Positions 12,744-19,056 of a DNA stretch of 21,322 nt are shown one piece after another (the stretch's first letter is position 1; every line of letters starts with the position of its first letter). Under the pieces are notes generated by a model, which saw only the letters and a program-made list of their open reading frames with translations, did not search any database and was not told the DNA's origin. Location of the stretch: positions 1-21,322 of the IMG/VR virus record IMGVR_UViG_3300002906_000008. One strand, written 5' to 3'. This stretch comes from a virus. A program made the translations under genes and the position numbers.

Positions 12744-14251
12744 TGAGGCAAGGCCAACAACAGTTATCTGAAGTTGGTGATCCTAATGTGGTTATTCCTT
12801 TGGCTGCTAGTTACAATAGCCGGGGATTGGCTGGCTTCACAAACACTATTACTAATGCTGTTGATCAACGCAAGATCAACTCGATGTATGAACCTGTACA
12901 CAATAGTGTGAGTGGAGAAACAGCCTTATATTTAATTAAACGGCCAGGTGTCTCTGATGTAGGAAGTACTTATGGTACGACAGGACAAGTAGCCTATCTA
13001 TGGGACGTGGCGGCGGGTGCACTCACCAGTGCAGCAGTTAATAGGTGGGTATTTTCTACATCCTCCAATGACTGCCGTGCCAGTGATGCTTCATCAACTA
13101 CAGTAATTTTAACTTCTGCAGGGTATAGTCCTGCCTTCGTAGATAAGAGTTTTATCACCAGTACAGATACTTGTATTGTCCAATTACGTCATACCAATGG
13201 TACACAACGTGTTTTCTATAGTTCTACCATAGGAACGTGGACAGAAATCATCGACACTGATTTTACCACTCTTGCTCATGTTGGCAAAATGGAGTATTTA
13301 AATGGACGTGCTTATGTATTATCTCGTACTGGTGCTAGGATTTATAATTCCGATCTCAATTCTTTATCTAGCTGGTCTGCTACTTCGTTTCTTACCAAAC
13401 AAGTGGTTCAAGACATTGCGACTGGACTAGCTAGGTTTGGTGACCAAATCATTGCATTTGGTGAATCTACTATGGAGGTATTCCGAGATGTTGGCAATCC
13501 TACAGGTTCTTCCCTTGAAGCTCAAACCGACCTCGCTCAGCGTGTCGGACTCCAATCCACTGTGGTTACGGGTCAAAGACACTATTACACACGAATCGGT
13601 GACTACATGTTCTGGCGGGGCTCTAATCCCTTGGGTGTATATGCGTATAACGGACAGCGAGTAGAGAAGGTCTCTACCCCTGCTATTGATAAGATACTTG
13701 CTGAACGTCAACATTATTTTGTCTCCAGTATGGATATTCAAGGTCAAAAAGCCGTGGTTATCGGGCTCGACTTGCCTTCCGCAACGACCCAACGCGCACT
13801 CCTATTCTTCCCGGATTGGAAGGATTGGTTCGAGTGGAATTCTACAGTATTCATTCCACAAAGTTCCCCGCGTCTTTTAGATGTATGTCTTGGGGTAGGT
13901 ACCAATCAACATAAGTTGTATCAAGTCTCCAGCGGTACTGATAATTGGCAAGATGCTGGTGGTAACTATACTATGACTCATCAATTTAAGATACCCAAGC
14001 AAGGGAATGGACGAGATCGGATGTCTATGTTTGGAGTTACCGGGGATACCTCCAGAAGCGCTCAGAACCTCTCTGTTGAGTTCTCTAACGACGATTACCA
14101 GACCTTCCAGACTGTTCGTAACATTGATCTTACGGCTCCTGAGAAGGCCCTGTGGCATTGTGGTAGCTATAAGACTCCGCGTATTGCTAGACTGTCATAT
14201 GCAGGTAGTTTAGGTGTTCGTCTTAAAGACGCTATTGCGAGAATAACTTGA
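12743..14251 (+). CDS. Packaged-DNA stabilisation protein, P22 gp10-like
   Basis: This 502-residue protein is made of repeated beta-strand blocks, consistent with the beta-propeller-like plug protein gp10 of P22, which closes the neck between gp4 and the tail needle. Landmarks are an N-terminal AASYNSRGLAGFTN (about 22-35), a DIATGLARFGDQIIAFGEST segment (about 225-244) and YYTRIGDYMFWRGSNPLGVY (about 281-300). It starts at GTG 12743, with AAGGA at 12730-12734, overlapping the gp4-like gene by one base. The length is close to gp10 of P22. No gp26-like needle gene is seen after it; the fibre gene comes next. Confidence 0.78.
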   Translation: MRQGQQQLSEVGDPNVVIPLAASYNSRGLAGFTNTITNAVDQRKINSMYEPVHNSVSGETALYLIKRPGVSDVGSTYGTTGQVAYLWDVAAGALTSAAVNRWVFSTSSNDCRASDASSTTVILTSAGYSPAFVDKSFITSTDTCIVQLRHTNGTQRVFYSSTIGTWTEIIDTDFTTLAHVGKMEYLNGRAYVLSRTGARIYNSDLNSLSSWSATSFLTKQVVQDIATGLARFGDQIIAFGESTMEVFRDVGNPTGSSLEAQTDLAQRVGLQSTVVTGQRHYYTRIGDYMFWRGSNPLGVYAYNGQRVEKVSTPAIDKILAERQHYFVSSMDIQGQKAVVIGLDLPSATTQRALLFFPDWKDWFEWNSTVFIPQSSPRLLDVCLGVGTNQHKLYQVSSGTDNWQDAGGNYTMTHQFKIPKQGNGRDRMSMFGVTGDTSRSAQNLSVEFSNDDYQTFQTVRNIDLTAPEKALWHCGSYKTPRIARLSYAGSLGVRLKDAIARIT

Positions 14252-16581
14252 TCTATCTTGACTCACCTGCTAAGTCCTTAATGTTGGTATTAGATGCTGT
14301 TGTGGCTACTAATCAACTCGACATTAGCTTAGATTACTTTGATGTGGTACCCCAGAGTACAACAACTACACGGCGTGGTGGTGTACAAACATCTTCCAGT
14401 AATGGTATATCCGATGTGACCATTTCTAGTGCTCCGGCGACTCAAGGTATCATTAGAAATATCCATACTATCTTCATTAATAACAAGGACACTGCTACTC
14501 GCATTGTTACGGTTAAACTTGATGATGGTGGTAGTCAGAAGATACTTATTAAGCAAACTCTCGCCTCTGGAGATAGTCTTGTGTACGAAGACAATAGAGG
14601 CTGGGAAGTTCTTACTCCTATTACTGCTCCCTTCGTAGATACTACGGAAATAGTTAAAGGTTCATTAGACGCGTCTAAGCGGTTACGAATTGAAGTAGAT
14701 GGCATTACTACAGGTACAACTCGTGTATGGACTGTAGCGGATGCTGACATTGTTGTAGGTGGTTCTGCCAGTGCTATGACTGCTGGTAGAGTGGTTTACA
14801 CTGATACTGGTGGTTTGCTTAATGCTAGTGGCTCTCTTACATGGACTGGTAGTGGTACTCTCGCATTAATAGGCGCCCAGACCATTTCCAGTACCCTTGG
14901 TGTAACAGGTACAAGTACATTAGGTGTAACCAATACAGGCGCATTCACTGCTACAACTGGAAGTTTTAGTTCAACTCTTGGTGTAACTGGCCATACTACC
15001 TTTGAAGGTGTAACTTCTACAGGTGCCACAGGCACTGGCAATCTCGTCTATAGCATCAGTCCGACAGTTACCGGAACGCTATCAACGGCCAATATCTCGG
15101 CAACCACCACAAGTAGTTATGGATTGACGATGACTACTGCGGCCAACGCTTTCGTTGGTATGCAGTTGTCTCGCACAGTAAATACTGCATCGAGTTGGGA
15201 CATTTATACTCCGGCAGGTACTACCGATCTACGGTTGTTCGCCAATACCGCCGATCGTCTAACGCTCACGAATACGGGGGCATTAACTATTACGGGTGGG
15301 TTGTCGGCAACTACTGGGAACTTCAGCAGCACACTCAGTGTTACCGGACATACTACTTTTGAGGGTGTGACTTCAGCCGGGGCGACGGGCACCGGCAACA
15401 TCGTCTATAGTGTCGCGCCTACATTCACTGGAACAATCAATGGTGGTACTTTTACGGCTTCTGGTCAGTTTGATAATGGTGGCGTACAGGGTGCGACGAA
15501 AGGAATTGTCCTCGGAGGACTAGGCGTCAATTATGGACGCTTCATCGAGTCTGCCAATGATAATTGGCAAATTGGCTATTCTGGAACACGAACAGGAGCA
15601 GTTACATCATTGCTTGCGTTTACAACGTCAACAGCGACTTTTAGTCAAAACTTGACGGTCTCTGGCACAGGCCCTCACTCGGTTGGTGGGGCAACGAGTA
15701 CTTTGTCGCAGTGGTTGATACAAGGTGGATTTACTCCTAGTGCTGGAACTGGATATAATATCTCCATCCAAAGCAGTATTTCACCACCTGTTAATCAAAG
15801 TGCGTATGCCTTCGATGTGCAGCCAACACTCGTACGCTTTGGAAGTGGTACGATGCCAGAATATGCCTCGGCTCGTTTTTCCGCTCCGGCAGTTGGTGGA
15901 AGTGCTACCACCATTACAGTTATGTCAACAGTATCTATTGAGAGTGCGCCCAGTAATGGTGCAACTAATTGGGCACTCAACATAAAAGCCGGTGGGACGA
16001 ATATGGGCGGCGCTCTCACCTACGGCGGCGTCACCCTCAGCAACGCCGTGACGGGTACGGGGAATATGGTTCTATCTGCATCTCCGACATTATCAGGAAC
16101 AATCGGAGGTGCAATCACCTTCTCTGGAGCATTAACTCTTAGCAGTGCACTTACTTATGGAGGTGTTGCTTTGAGTAACGCAGTCACCGGCACCGGCAAC
16201 ATGGTGTTATCGGCCAGTCCTACTCTGTCGGGTACAGCTACGCTGCCAAGTGTCACAATGGCAGCAAGTGCCAATTTAACCAATGGCGTTACAGTTACTG
16301 CTGGTTCTTATTCCACCGGTTCCATCACTGTAGATTACACTAAAGGCCCCCTTTCTACAATTACGAATGGTGGAGCATACACTATTACTAACTCAGCCTC
16401 AGACGGATCACAGATTCTGTTGGTAACAAATAATGGCAGTGCTGGTGCTACAACCTTTACAGGTTTTACAGCTAGTAGCAATACAGGTGATCCATTGACT
16501 ACTACGAATACTCATAAATTTATGATTACACTTGTTCGTATTAATAGTACAAGTACATATCACGTCAAGGCGCTTCAGTAA
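14248..16581 (+). CDS. Tail fibre / receptor-binding protein with repeated modules
   Basis: The 777-residue protein is low in charge and very rich in Thr, Ser, Gly and Ala, typical of a trimeric beta fibre. The N-terminal 120 residues look like a distinct, probably virion-attaching domain. From about 190 on it is modular. Residues 243-277 and 362-396 are near-copies (TGHTTFEGVTS, ATGTGN). Residues 590-618 and 635-663 are another pair (LTYGGV, SNAVTGTGNMVLSASPTLSG). All four share a TGTGN core. The last 100 residues form a different C-terminal domain ending HVKALQ. No C-terminal self-cleaving chaperone is seen. The start is TTG 14248, overlapping the gp10-like stop as TTGA; ATG 14281 is an alternative that would lose 11 residues. 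Base composition shifts along the gene, with GC-rich patches near 15,280-15,440 and 16,000-16,065, suggesting a mosaic origin. Confidence 0.8.
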   Translation: MIYLDSPAKSLMLVLDAVVATNQLDISLDYFDVVPQSTTTTRRGGVQTSSSNGISDVTISSAPATQGIIRNIHTIFINNKDTATRIVTVKLDDGGSQKILIKQTLASGDSLVYEDNRGWEVLTPITAPFVDTTEIVKGSLDASKRLRIEVDGITTGTTRVWTVADADIVVGGSASAMTAGRVVYTDTGGLLNASGSLTWTGSGTLALIGAQTISSTLGVTGTSTLGVTNTGAFTATTGSFSSTLGVTGHTTFEGVTSTGATGTGNLVYSISPTVTGTLSTANISATTTSSYGLTMTTAANAFVGMQLSRTVNTASSWDIYTPAGTTDLRLFANTADRLTLTNTGALTITGGLSATTGNFSSTLSVTGHTTFEGVTSAGATGTGNIVYSVAPTFTGTINGGTFTASGQFDNGGVQGATKGIVLGGLGVNYGRFIESANDNWQIGYSGTRTGAVTSLLAFTTSTATFSQNLTVSGTGPHSVGGATSTLSQWLIQGGFTPSAGTGYNISIQSSISPPVNQSAYAFDVQPTLVRFGSGTMPEYASARFSAPAVGGSATTITVMSTVSIESAPSNGATNWALNIKAGGTNMGGALTYGGVTLSNAVTGTGNMVLSASPTLSGTIGGAITFSGALTLSSALTYGGVALSNAVTGTGNMVLSASPTLSGTATLPSVTMAASANLTNGVTVTAGSYSTGSITVDYTKGPLSTITNGGAYTITNSASDGSQILLVTNNGSAGATTFTGFTASSNTGDPLTTTNTHKFMITLVRINSTSTYHVKALQ
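14974..15078 (+). repeat. Fibre module A, copy 1
   Basis: This 35-codon segment encodes STL-GVTGHTTFEGVTSTG-type sequence through to SPTVTGT. It matches copy 2 (15331-15435) at 29 of 35 residues, but only 11 codons are identical and 18 differ synonymously. Confidence 0.8.
15331..15435 (+). repeat. Fibre module A, copy 2
   Basis: This is the second copy of the 35-codon module, in frame with the first and 357 bases downstream. It uses more G/C-ending codons than copy 1, for example GCG, ACG and GTG. The shared core ATGTGN is also present in module B. Confidence 0.8.
16015..16101 (+). repeat. Fibre module B, copy 1
   Basis: This 29-codon segment begins LTYGGV and ends SPTLSGT. Compared with copy 2 (16150-16236), 28 of 29 residues are identical but 26 of 29 codons differ. 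The first half of this copy is strongly GC-rich against its surroundings. Confidence 0.82.
16150..16236 (+). repeat. Fibre module B, copy 2
   Basis: This is the second copy, 135 bases downstream and in frame. Only AAC, ATG and the final ACA codons are unchanged between the copies; the only residue change is Thr to Ala in the GV-T/A-L position. Confidence 0.82.
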
Positions 16582-16997: not shown

Positions 16998-17380
16998 TGG
17001 GGCCGTCTTACCACCTTCTTAATTTGCTACTTTCTCTTGCCCCATCTTTTGGGCAATGGCAGAATATGCAACCAGGTCAAGGCGAGGATCAATGGTTACA
17101 ACATCCCTATCTGCAAGTACCAAAAGAACGATGGGGCTATAATTTCAGTCCTGATGTCAACGCCGATTGCACTGCAGCGTTTGGTCCTAAACCTAGTGGA
17201 CCATGGGCAGGATGTACGTCTTATGTGCCGGGAGAAAACGGACTTGAAGCTATGATTAATCTTCCAAGACGTGGTCTTAAACCAGATTTGCAAGAACATG
17301 AAGAAAAGCATGCTCAGGGATTTGTTCATCCCGATCAACAAATATTAGATGAATATTCCAGACAACAAGGAATCAAATGA
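16997..17380 (+). CDS. Secreted-looking mini-protein with metzincin zinc motif
   Basis: The 127-residue protein has a hydrophobic N-terminal segment (about 7-18, LLNLLLSLAPSF) that could be a signal peptide. It also has C58 and C73, likely disulfide partners, and HEEKHAQGFVH at 101-111. The last matches HExxHxxGxxH, the zinc-binding consensus of metzincin metalloproteases, with H101, H105 and H111 as ligands and E102 as catalytic base. Small phage proteins with a similar histidine motif preceded by a Cys pair are known to me from other phages, with no established substrate. It may act on the envelope in lysis or entry; that is inference. No Met-turn can be assigned in the 16 residues after the motif, so activity is uncertain. 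The start is ATG 16997, coupled by TAATG. Confidence 0.72.
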   Translation: MGPSYHLLNLLLSLAPSFGQWQNMQPGQGEDQWLQHPYLQVPKERWGYNFSPDVNADCTAAFGPKPSGPWAGCTSYVPGENGLEAMINLPRRGLKPDLQEHEEKHAQGFVHPDQQILDEYSRQQGIK

Positions 17381-19056
17381 ATTATCAAACTGAAGATATG
17401 GGTGGTCGAAGTCTTGCAGATAATTATGTAACTTCCCCTAGTCCTGCTCTTGGACAAGGAATGCAATCCTCCCAAGCCATGGCGGATCAATACAATCAGT
17501 GGCTTGCTCAAAACGCTCCCAAAGGCGGAGGTTCATTCATGGATTTCATTACCCATGATGCGTTATCTACTGATGCCCTTAAAAACTATGCTGCTATGGC
17601 GGCTATGATGTTTGGTGTTCCGGCTGCCGCTGGAGCGGCGGGAGGTGCTGGTACTATGGCAGGTGCTGCTGCTGGTGGTGCTGTGGCTGGTGGTGCTAAT
17701 GCTCAACTCATGGGACAACCAGTAGGTCAAGGTGCTCTACTGGGTGCTGCCGGTGGAGCTGGTGGTAGTGCCATGAACGGCATGATGACTCCGGAAGTAG
17801 CGAATAGCGGTAGTGATTTTGGGGGACAAGGTGTAGGTTGGAGTCCCGATCAAATGGGTGGAATGGCATCACAAGAAGCACAATCTTTCCCAATTAGTAA
17901 TCCTCAACAAGGTATGCAAAGTATGCCAATGTCCGCAAATCCACCTATGGGACAACCATTTCAAATAGCGCAAGGTGGTGGAATGCCTCAAACAGATACT
18001 AATATATCGGGTCTTAGTAATATGACGAATTCTAGTACTCCAGATTTTAGTAATGTAGATTTTAACAAGATCTTTGATTCCGGTTCAAACGGTGTAACTA
18101 ATCTACCGAGTGCTCCAGCACCTGCACCTATGAATGCAGGTACTCCAGATCTAACTGGCCAACAACTTGCTCCACAACAACAAACTGCAAGTACCGGTAG
18201 TACGATGCCACAGTTACCACAAGGTTCCGGACAACTAGCTGCGGGTAGTTTAGTTGCGGGCAGTGCCTCTCAATTTGATCCTGCTTCTGATCCTAATACT
18301 AATACCAACCAAGGTCCTGCTAATCCCAATGTTTCGAGTATCGATCCGATAACAGGTACTCCATATGAAACTGGAACTGGTAGTGGTGGAGGAAACTCAC
18401 AAAGTGGCAGTGGTGGTCTAAGTGATTTTCTAGGTCAACTCGGTCTTGGTGGATCATCCGGGTTTGCCCAGCAGCAAGGTGGAATGAATATTCCAGGTAT
18501 GATTGGTTCCGGGATGGAATTTGCCGGGGCTCAACAATACCGTAAACAGCTTTTGGATCTAATGCAACAGGCAGTAAATAAGAGTGATCCGTTTGCCAGC
18601 CAGCGTGGTCAGTATCAACAACAGTTCCAACAATACAATACCAATCCAAATTTCTTCCAAAATGACTCGGTTATGCAAGGGTTACAGAATAGTGCCTTGC
18701 GTAATGTGGAAAGTAGAGATGCTACTAGAGGTTATCTCGGGTCCGGGAATATGCTTATGGATTCAATCAGGCAGTCAAATGAGACTGCTGCTCCATATAT
18801 GCTCGCTCGTGGTAATCAACTTGGACAAGCTGCCGGTATGAATGCTAATCCAGCAGCAGCAGGTCAAGTTATGTCTTCCATTAGCCCACTCATTGCTGGT
18901 GCATCTAATCAATCTATGGGTGCTTTGGGTTCCTTGATGCAATACGGTCTTGGTGCTCAAACTGGTGCTAATGGTTCCCCACAAGGTGGTGGAATGAATC
19001 TTAGTGGTCTCGGGAATATGGTAAGTGGCGGAATTAAGAGTATTTTCGGAGAATAA
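17377..19056 (+). CDS. Low-complexity internal virion (DNA ejection) protein
   Basis: The 559-residue protein is very rich in Gly, Ala, Gln, Asn, Ser and Met. Residues about 70-135 form an Ala/Gly stretch (MAAMMFGVPAAAGAAGGAG onward) that resembles a glycine-zipper membrane segment. The middle (150-370) is Pro/Gly/Ser/Gln-rich and probably disordered. The C-terminal part (380-559) is more helical, with IGSGMEFAGAQQYRKQLLDL and a GYLGSGNMLMDSIRQS segment. Podovirus ejection proteins are carried in the head and inserted into the envelope to guide DNA, and such composition in this position fits. It starts at ATG 17377, overlapping the metzincin-like gene as ATGA. Confidence 0.7.
   Translation: MNYQTEDMGGRSLADNYVTSPSPALGQGMQSSQAMADQYNQWLAQNAPKGGGSFMDFITHDALSTDALKNYAAMAAMMFGVPAAAGAAGGAGTMAGAAAGGAVAGGANAQLMGQPVGQGALLGAAGGAGGSAMNGMMTPEVANSGSDFGGQGVGWSPDQMGGMASQEAQSFPISNPQQGMQSMPMSANPPMGQPFQIAQGGGMPQTDTNISGLSNMTNSSTPDFSNVDFNKIFDSGSNGVTNLPSAPAPAPMNAGTPDLTGQQLAPQQQTASTGSTMPQLPQGSGQLAAGSLVAGSASQFDPASDPNTNTNQGPANPNVSSIDPITGTPYETGTGSGGGNSQSGSGGLSDFLGQLGLGGSSGFAQQQGGMNIPGMIGSGMEFAGAQQYRKQLLDLMQQAVNKSDPFASQRGQYQQQFQQYNTNPNFFQNDSVMQGLQNSALRNVESRDATRGYLGSGNMLMDSIRQSNETAAPYMLARGNQLGQAAGMNANPAAAGQVMSSISPLIAGASNQSMGALGSLMQYGLGAQTGANGSPQGGGMNLSGLGNMVSGGIKSIFGE

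Follow-up and report, generated by a model that had tools for sequence, protein, structure and literature searches.

Mirror-image codon blocks in paired modules of a phage tail-fibre-like gene suggest a mosaic of an old shared fibre module

Two neighbouring modules in a tail-fibre-like phage gene, B1 and B2, encode almost the same peptide with almost entirely different codons, and each is a patchwork of GC-type and AT-type module sequence, the two types standing in opposite order in the two copies. On balance, we lean towards reading the pair as a mosaic of an old shared fibre module, whose GC-type and AT-type halves came to be reciprocally joined through recombination. The window analyzed is an entire virus record of 21,322 bases (IMGVR_UViG_3300002906_000008), an environmental virus contig.

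The modules lie in an open reading frame at 14248-16581 (+ strand, 777 aa), whose TTG start codon overlaps the stop codon of the gene before it. Terminase, portal, capsid, and connector/head-closure genes of a tailed phage are found upstream, which places this ORF in the structural-gene position expected of a tail fibre or receptor-binding protein. We call it fibre-like and assign no family because Pfam and PHROG scans of the 777-aa protein gave no match to a curated fibre family; some module-carrying proteins elsewhere have hits to tail fibre families in PHROG or to the Collar domain in Pfam. A whole-fibre search of IMG/VR, where sampling may be too thin, returned zero relatives. The monomer model was of low confidence (mean pLDDT 59.6), too low for a fold search, and a profile of the module matched no sequence of a solved structure in the PDB. 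The domain directly before module B (15658-15993, +) shares 29% identity with a stretch in a fibre found at two other loci (L022/L123); its counterpart, residues 275-394 of the L022 ORF, lies there downstream of a B module, not upstream. Further along the window, a downstream 559-aa gene (17377-19056) carries imperfect GGT/GCT-rich repeats at 17646-17766.

All four module copies are in frame within the ORF. Of the 35 codons in copies A1 (14974-15078, +) and A2 (15331-15435, +) of module A, 11 are the same in both, 18 differ synonymously, and 6 change the residue. Copies B1 (16015-16101, +) and B2 (16150-16236, +) of module B differ in 26 of 29 codons, 25 of them synonymously and one with a residue change (T/A), and 24 of their 30 base differences fall at third positions. 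These counts agree exactly with those of a first-pass annotation of the same DNA, for the A copies as well as for the B copies. The annotation also placed the B copies 135 bases apart, a figure that is correct as the start-to-start period (45 codons) but not as the intervening gap, which is a linker of 48 bases, or 16 codons (16102-16149, +). There are only two other close B-type pairs (at L002 and L003), and both have this 45-codon period. The synonymous and nonsynonymous distances that the annotation called for, calculated by NG86, are a dS of 1.79 and a dN of 0.105 for the A pair; for the B pair, pS is 1.02 (saturated, leaving dS undefined) and dN is 0.068.

Modules A and B, which align in register around TGTG...V.....P, represent two classes within a single "TGTG" fibre module of 28 residues. 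Hundreds of environmental phage contigs carry this module, with variable flanking contexts: a search with module B recovered 224 loci, and a search with module A recovered 143 loci. Despite the variable flanks, many module-bearing fibres are chained together by other common fibre pieces. Contigs of bacterial genomes, among them candidate phyla and Bradyrhizobium, contain the class B module as well; the contigs at L145-L154, filed as bacterial (candidate phyla, Acidobacteriia, Bradyrhizobium), are perhaps prophages or binned phage contigs. Near-invariance of the protein is seen in 91 ORFs, which between them hold 115 class B modules, although the searches used module peptides and the motif fixes several residues, so that invariance at those positions is partly by construction; with a relaxed motif, residue 18 is still Met in 118 of 121 modules. 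Between genomes, same-residue codons match at a rate of 0.32, compared with 0.27 under random choice by each gene's codon use. These comparisons show that purifying selection holds the module protein almost constant and that, from lineage to lineage, synonymous change in the module is near saturation, and copies with separate histories would therefore look rewritten. Codon rewriting is thus the rule for the TGTG module across genomes. The strong selection on the protein postulated in the first pass is borne out by this near-invariance alongside near-saturated codons. As for the synonymous excess that it proposed to test in other fibres, codons are near-saturated between genomes, but within genes paired copies are closer in codons than random. 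Judging from the spread and conservation of the module, its residues are probably kept because it acts in the structure of a trimeric fibre as a joint or for register.

The codon matches of the A pair are nothing unusual (11 of 23 versus 7.9 expected, z +1.4), and A1 and A2 are each other's closest relatives in DNA (rank 1 of 83). Because the copies are mutual nearest neighbours, the comparison supports reading this pair as a plain old duplication within the gene. The B pair, in contrast, is a real outlier. Over its 28-codon core, a single one of 26 same-residue codons matches, where the codon use of the fibre itself would predict 7.9 (P = 0.0007), and only about 0.5% of between-genome pairs show so low a match; allowing for local third-position GC across all 29 codons, 2 of 27 match (P = 0.02). 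Moreover, B1 and B2 rank only 122 and 94 of 147 among each other's DNA relatives. A simple old tandem duplication, the history that the first-pass annotation had set against its own readings, is thus indicated by nearest DNA relatives for the A pair but not for the B pair. The divergence of the B pair goes beyond saturation, and therefore something else contributes.

The third-position GC content (GC3) of the gene provides an indication of what this may be. The fibre-wide GC3 is 0.36, yet B1 starts with 13 consecutive G/C-ending codons from codon 1, more than anywhere else in the gene (null P 0.0015), so that the GC-rich start of B1 noted in the first pass is real. Among the 15 window genes tested, GC3 patchiness is strong in the fibre only (P < 1/500), with P values of 0.01 and 0.03 for two others. 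A two-state GC3 hidden Markov model (HMM), unsupervised and fitted without knowledge of the module positions, placed all three internal GC-rich patches of the fibre in modules: in the core of A2 (15376-15405, +), at 16003-16053 (+, GC3 0.94), which stops at B1 codon 13, and at 16183-16206 (+, GC3 1.00) beginning at codon 12 of B2. By a rough count, the chance of three patches of such length all touching modules is about 0.008. The boundaries of the B1 and B2 patches are in register, at module codons 11-13, and between the patches lies an AT-type stretch (16054-16182, +, GC3 0.26), which we propose to be the exchanged or inserted repeat unit. The sequence GGCACCGGCAAC is common to the GC-rich patch and core of B2 and to the core of A2.

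Codon log-odds of the module pool versus the fibre divide the B copies in the same manner: B1 scores +12.7 bits over codons 1-12 and then -6.9, whereas B2 scores -9.6 bits first and then +7.1. Accordingly, the 5' half of B1 (codons 1-12) is of GC type and its 3' half of AT type, and in B2 an AT-type 5' half (codons 1-11) is followed by a GC-type core and 3' half. When the 5' part of B1 is joined to the 3' part of B2, the best identity to an outside module is 70-71 of 84, compared with 67 for B1 and 66 for B2, and the mean similarity of the join to outside modules peaks with the cut after codon 11; these similarities are each based on 84 bases and stem in part from GC content alone. For the arrangement in two blocks, a sign-flip test gave P = 0.004, the second lowest of 37 pairs, a value that alone fails strict correction for that number of pairs. 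By GC3 patchiness, HMM, and block test, the fibre thus contains blocks differing in composition or ancestry within one gene. DNA searches of each copy against 50,697 phage records (INPHARED) yielded chance-level matches only and no specific donor, and the distinct nucleotide source for each copy that the first-pass annotation proposed to search for did not emerge, in what may be too thin a sample. Of its proposal that the copies were acquired separately, the different codon origins are retained, as is a GC-rich start of B1 that was probably imported, while import of whole copies is at odds with half-modules that mirror each other.

The favoured history starts from an old, widespread fibre module of 28 residues, shared and shuffled among phages. 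The GC-type module in the B patchworks lies close to the common module pool, and the AT-type one has the codon habit of this fibre. The likeliest event would be recombination at the conserved VTGTG core, by which one 135-base period of an AT-type array (3' half, linker, 5' half) entered a GC-type module, and the outcome of such an insertion would be two chimeric modules with complementary halves. Against this mosaic, no relative with an intact GC-type module at the B site is known.

Several other origins may be considered for these patterns. Short GC-rich patches could have been imported independently into the 5' half of B1, the core of B2, and the core of A2 through gene conversion, either with GC-rich phages as the source or between modules, as might be suspected from three short patches that each lie in a module, from the occurrence of GGCACCGGCAAC in both the A2 and B2 cores, and from a GC3 in flank-nonredundant modules (the 35 left once those with similar flanks were removed) that generally exceeds their own gene's expectation by 0.09. 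This explanation is unlikely, as it leaves the in-register boundaries of B1 and B2 to chance; two independent imports into the B pair would also fit, less likely than a mosaic, if the boundaries coincided by chance. A very old tandem duplication, in which B1 and B2 arose from one in-gene event and drift saturated the synonymous sites of a selected protein, gains from the near-saturation that is normal for the TGTG module between genomes and from the A pair, which fits such a history. We nevertheless hold it to be improbable for the B pair, for which saturation predicts 7.9 matching codons rather than the one observed among 26 (P 0.0007), mutual nearest relatives are not found, and drift is not expected to yield complementary GC3 blocks. 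That the assembly joined the fibres of two strains could be imagined for an environmental virus contig, but the reading frame is open throughout and the runs common to B1 and B2 reach at most 7 consecutive bases (5 in register), too short to let an assembler cross from one to the other, making an artefact exceedingly unlikely. The variable repeat of a diversity-generating retroelement was also considered and rejected, since the B differences are almost all synonymous and not residue-changing.

The first-pass annotation had further suggested that synonymous divergence is maintained to protect adjacent modules from recombination, and B1 and B2 do diverge more than random codon choice predicts. 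Additionally, an IMG/VR scan for other TGTG[N/S]MV pairs at a 40-50 codon period found none, although it admits only AAY/AGY at residue 17 and misses the TCN serine form of L003 and the lysine form of L002. As a general rule, such selection is contradicted by the within-gene pairs, which on average are more alike in codons than random, both in class B (35 pairs including the window pair, mean z +1.14) and in class A (35 pairs, mean z +2.3); same-gene pairs are not independent, so the P values for these pairs are rough. Codon similarity is unrelated to spacing among the 35 class B pairs, and nearer copies are the more alike in class A (rho -0.43, P 0.01), so that adjacent copies are not more synonymously diverged than distant or unrelated ones. 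Furthermore, adjacent copies in class A arrays are near-identical, with up to 83 of 84 bases the same. Selection to block recombination is thus a very unlikely cause of the divergence between B1 and B2. Class A head-to-tail arrays with exactly 28 residues per unit are seen at L155, L156, L159, L160, L162, and L208.

Certain codons of the module are more constant than the rest, whereas its other synonymous sites are nearly free. At valine 19, GTG is the codon in 28 of the 35 flank-nonredundant modules, where 7.0 would be expected (z 9.2); at leucine 20, CTG stands in 19 of 35 (7.4 expected), and ACC is used at residue 2 in 17 of 29 (7.6 expected). Of 59 M-V pairs outside the module in the fibres that carry it, only 14 have GTG. 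Residues 18-20 correspond to 16066-16074 in B1 and 16201-16209 in B2. RNA structure as a cause of the conserved codons found no support (MFE z -0.29 versus synonymous shuffles). It is conceivable, but doubtful, that the module is conserved at the DNA level as well, serving as a recombination joint inside which crossing over exchanges fibre halves. On this view, a few codons, above all ATG-GTG-CTG at residues 18-20, would be held among otherwise nearly free synonymous sites, and the mirror-image B1 and B2 chimeras could, in an equally speculative step, be a record of such crossovers.

Shuffling of fibre fragments between phages is documented, and tail fibres are among the most mosaic protein classes (Smug et al. 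2023, PMC10684548). As in that receptor-binding-protein mosaicism, fibre fragments are common here to otherwise different proteins; the differences are that the present unit is only 28 residues long, almost invariant, and near-saturated in its codons, with an apparent breakpoint inside the unit. For repeats within proteins, Persi, Wolf and Koonin (2016, PMC5120217) report that protein change is accelerated between new copies. The modules resemble such repeats in being paralogous copies within one protein, and duplication within the gene suits both the A pair and the tandem A arrays seen in other phages, but the B pair shows almost no protein change and did not arise as a simple duplication. 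Rad52-like phage recombinases carry out relaxed homologous recombination between diverged phages (PMC3945230), an established way for diverged sequences to be joined. Fibre mosaicism is a known kind of process, while the novelty seems to lie in the TGTG module and in how B1 and B2 are split in register. No occurrence of the module peptide strings was found in the paper text searched, the 28-residue unit has no Pfam or PHROG match in the scanned proteins, and tblastn of the module against INPHARED gave no matches, possibly owing to the low-complexity filter. A unit of this length, near-invariant across fibres that are otherwise unlike one another, would serve as a useful marker for fibre genes in metagenomes and as a handle on how fibres are rebuilt. 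Copies can also seem recoded for an ordinary reason, an old shared part combined with mosaicism, which calls for caution with adaptive readings of codon divergence.

Finally, residues 11 and 17 of the class B module are coupled: among the 115 modules, 72 have the A-N combination and 38 have S-S, with one A-S exception and four modules with K17. The A11-N17 and S11-S17 forms both occur within single genes, and K17 accompanies D21 in both module classes.
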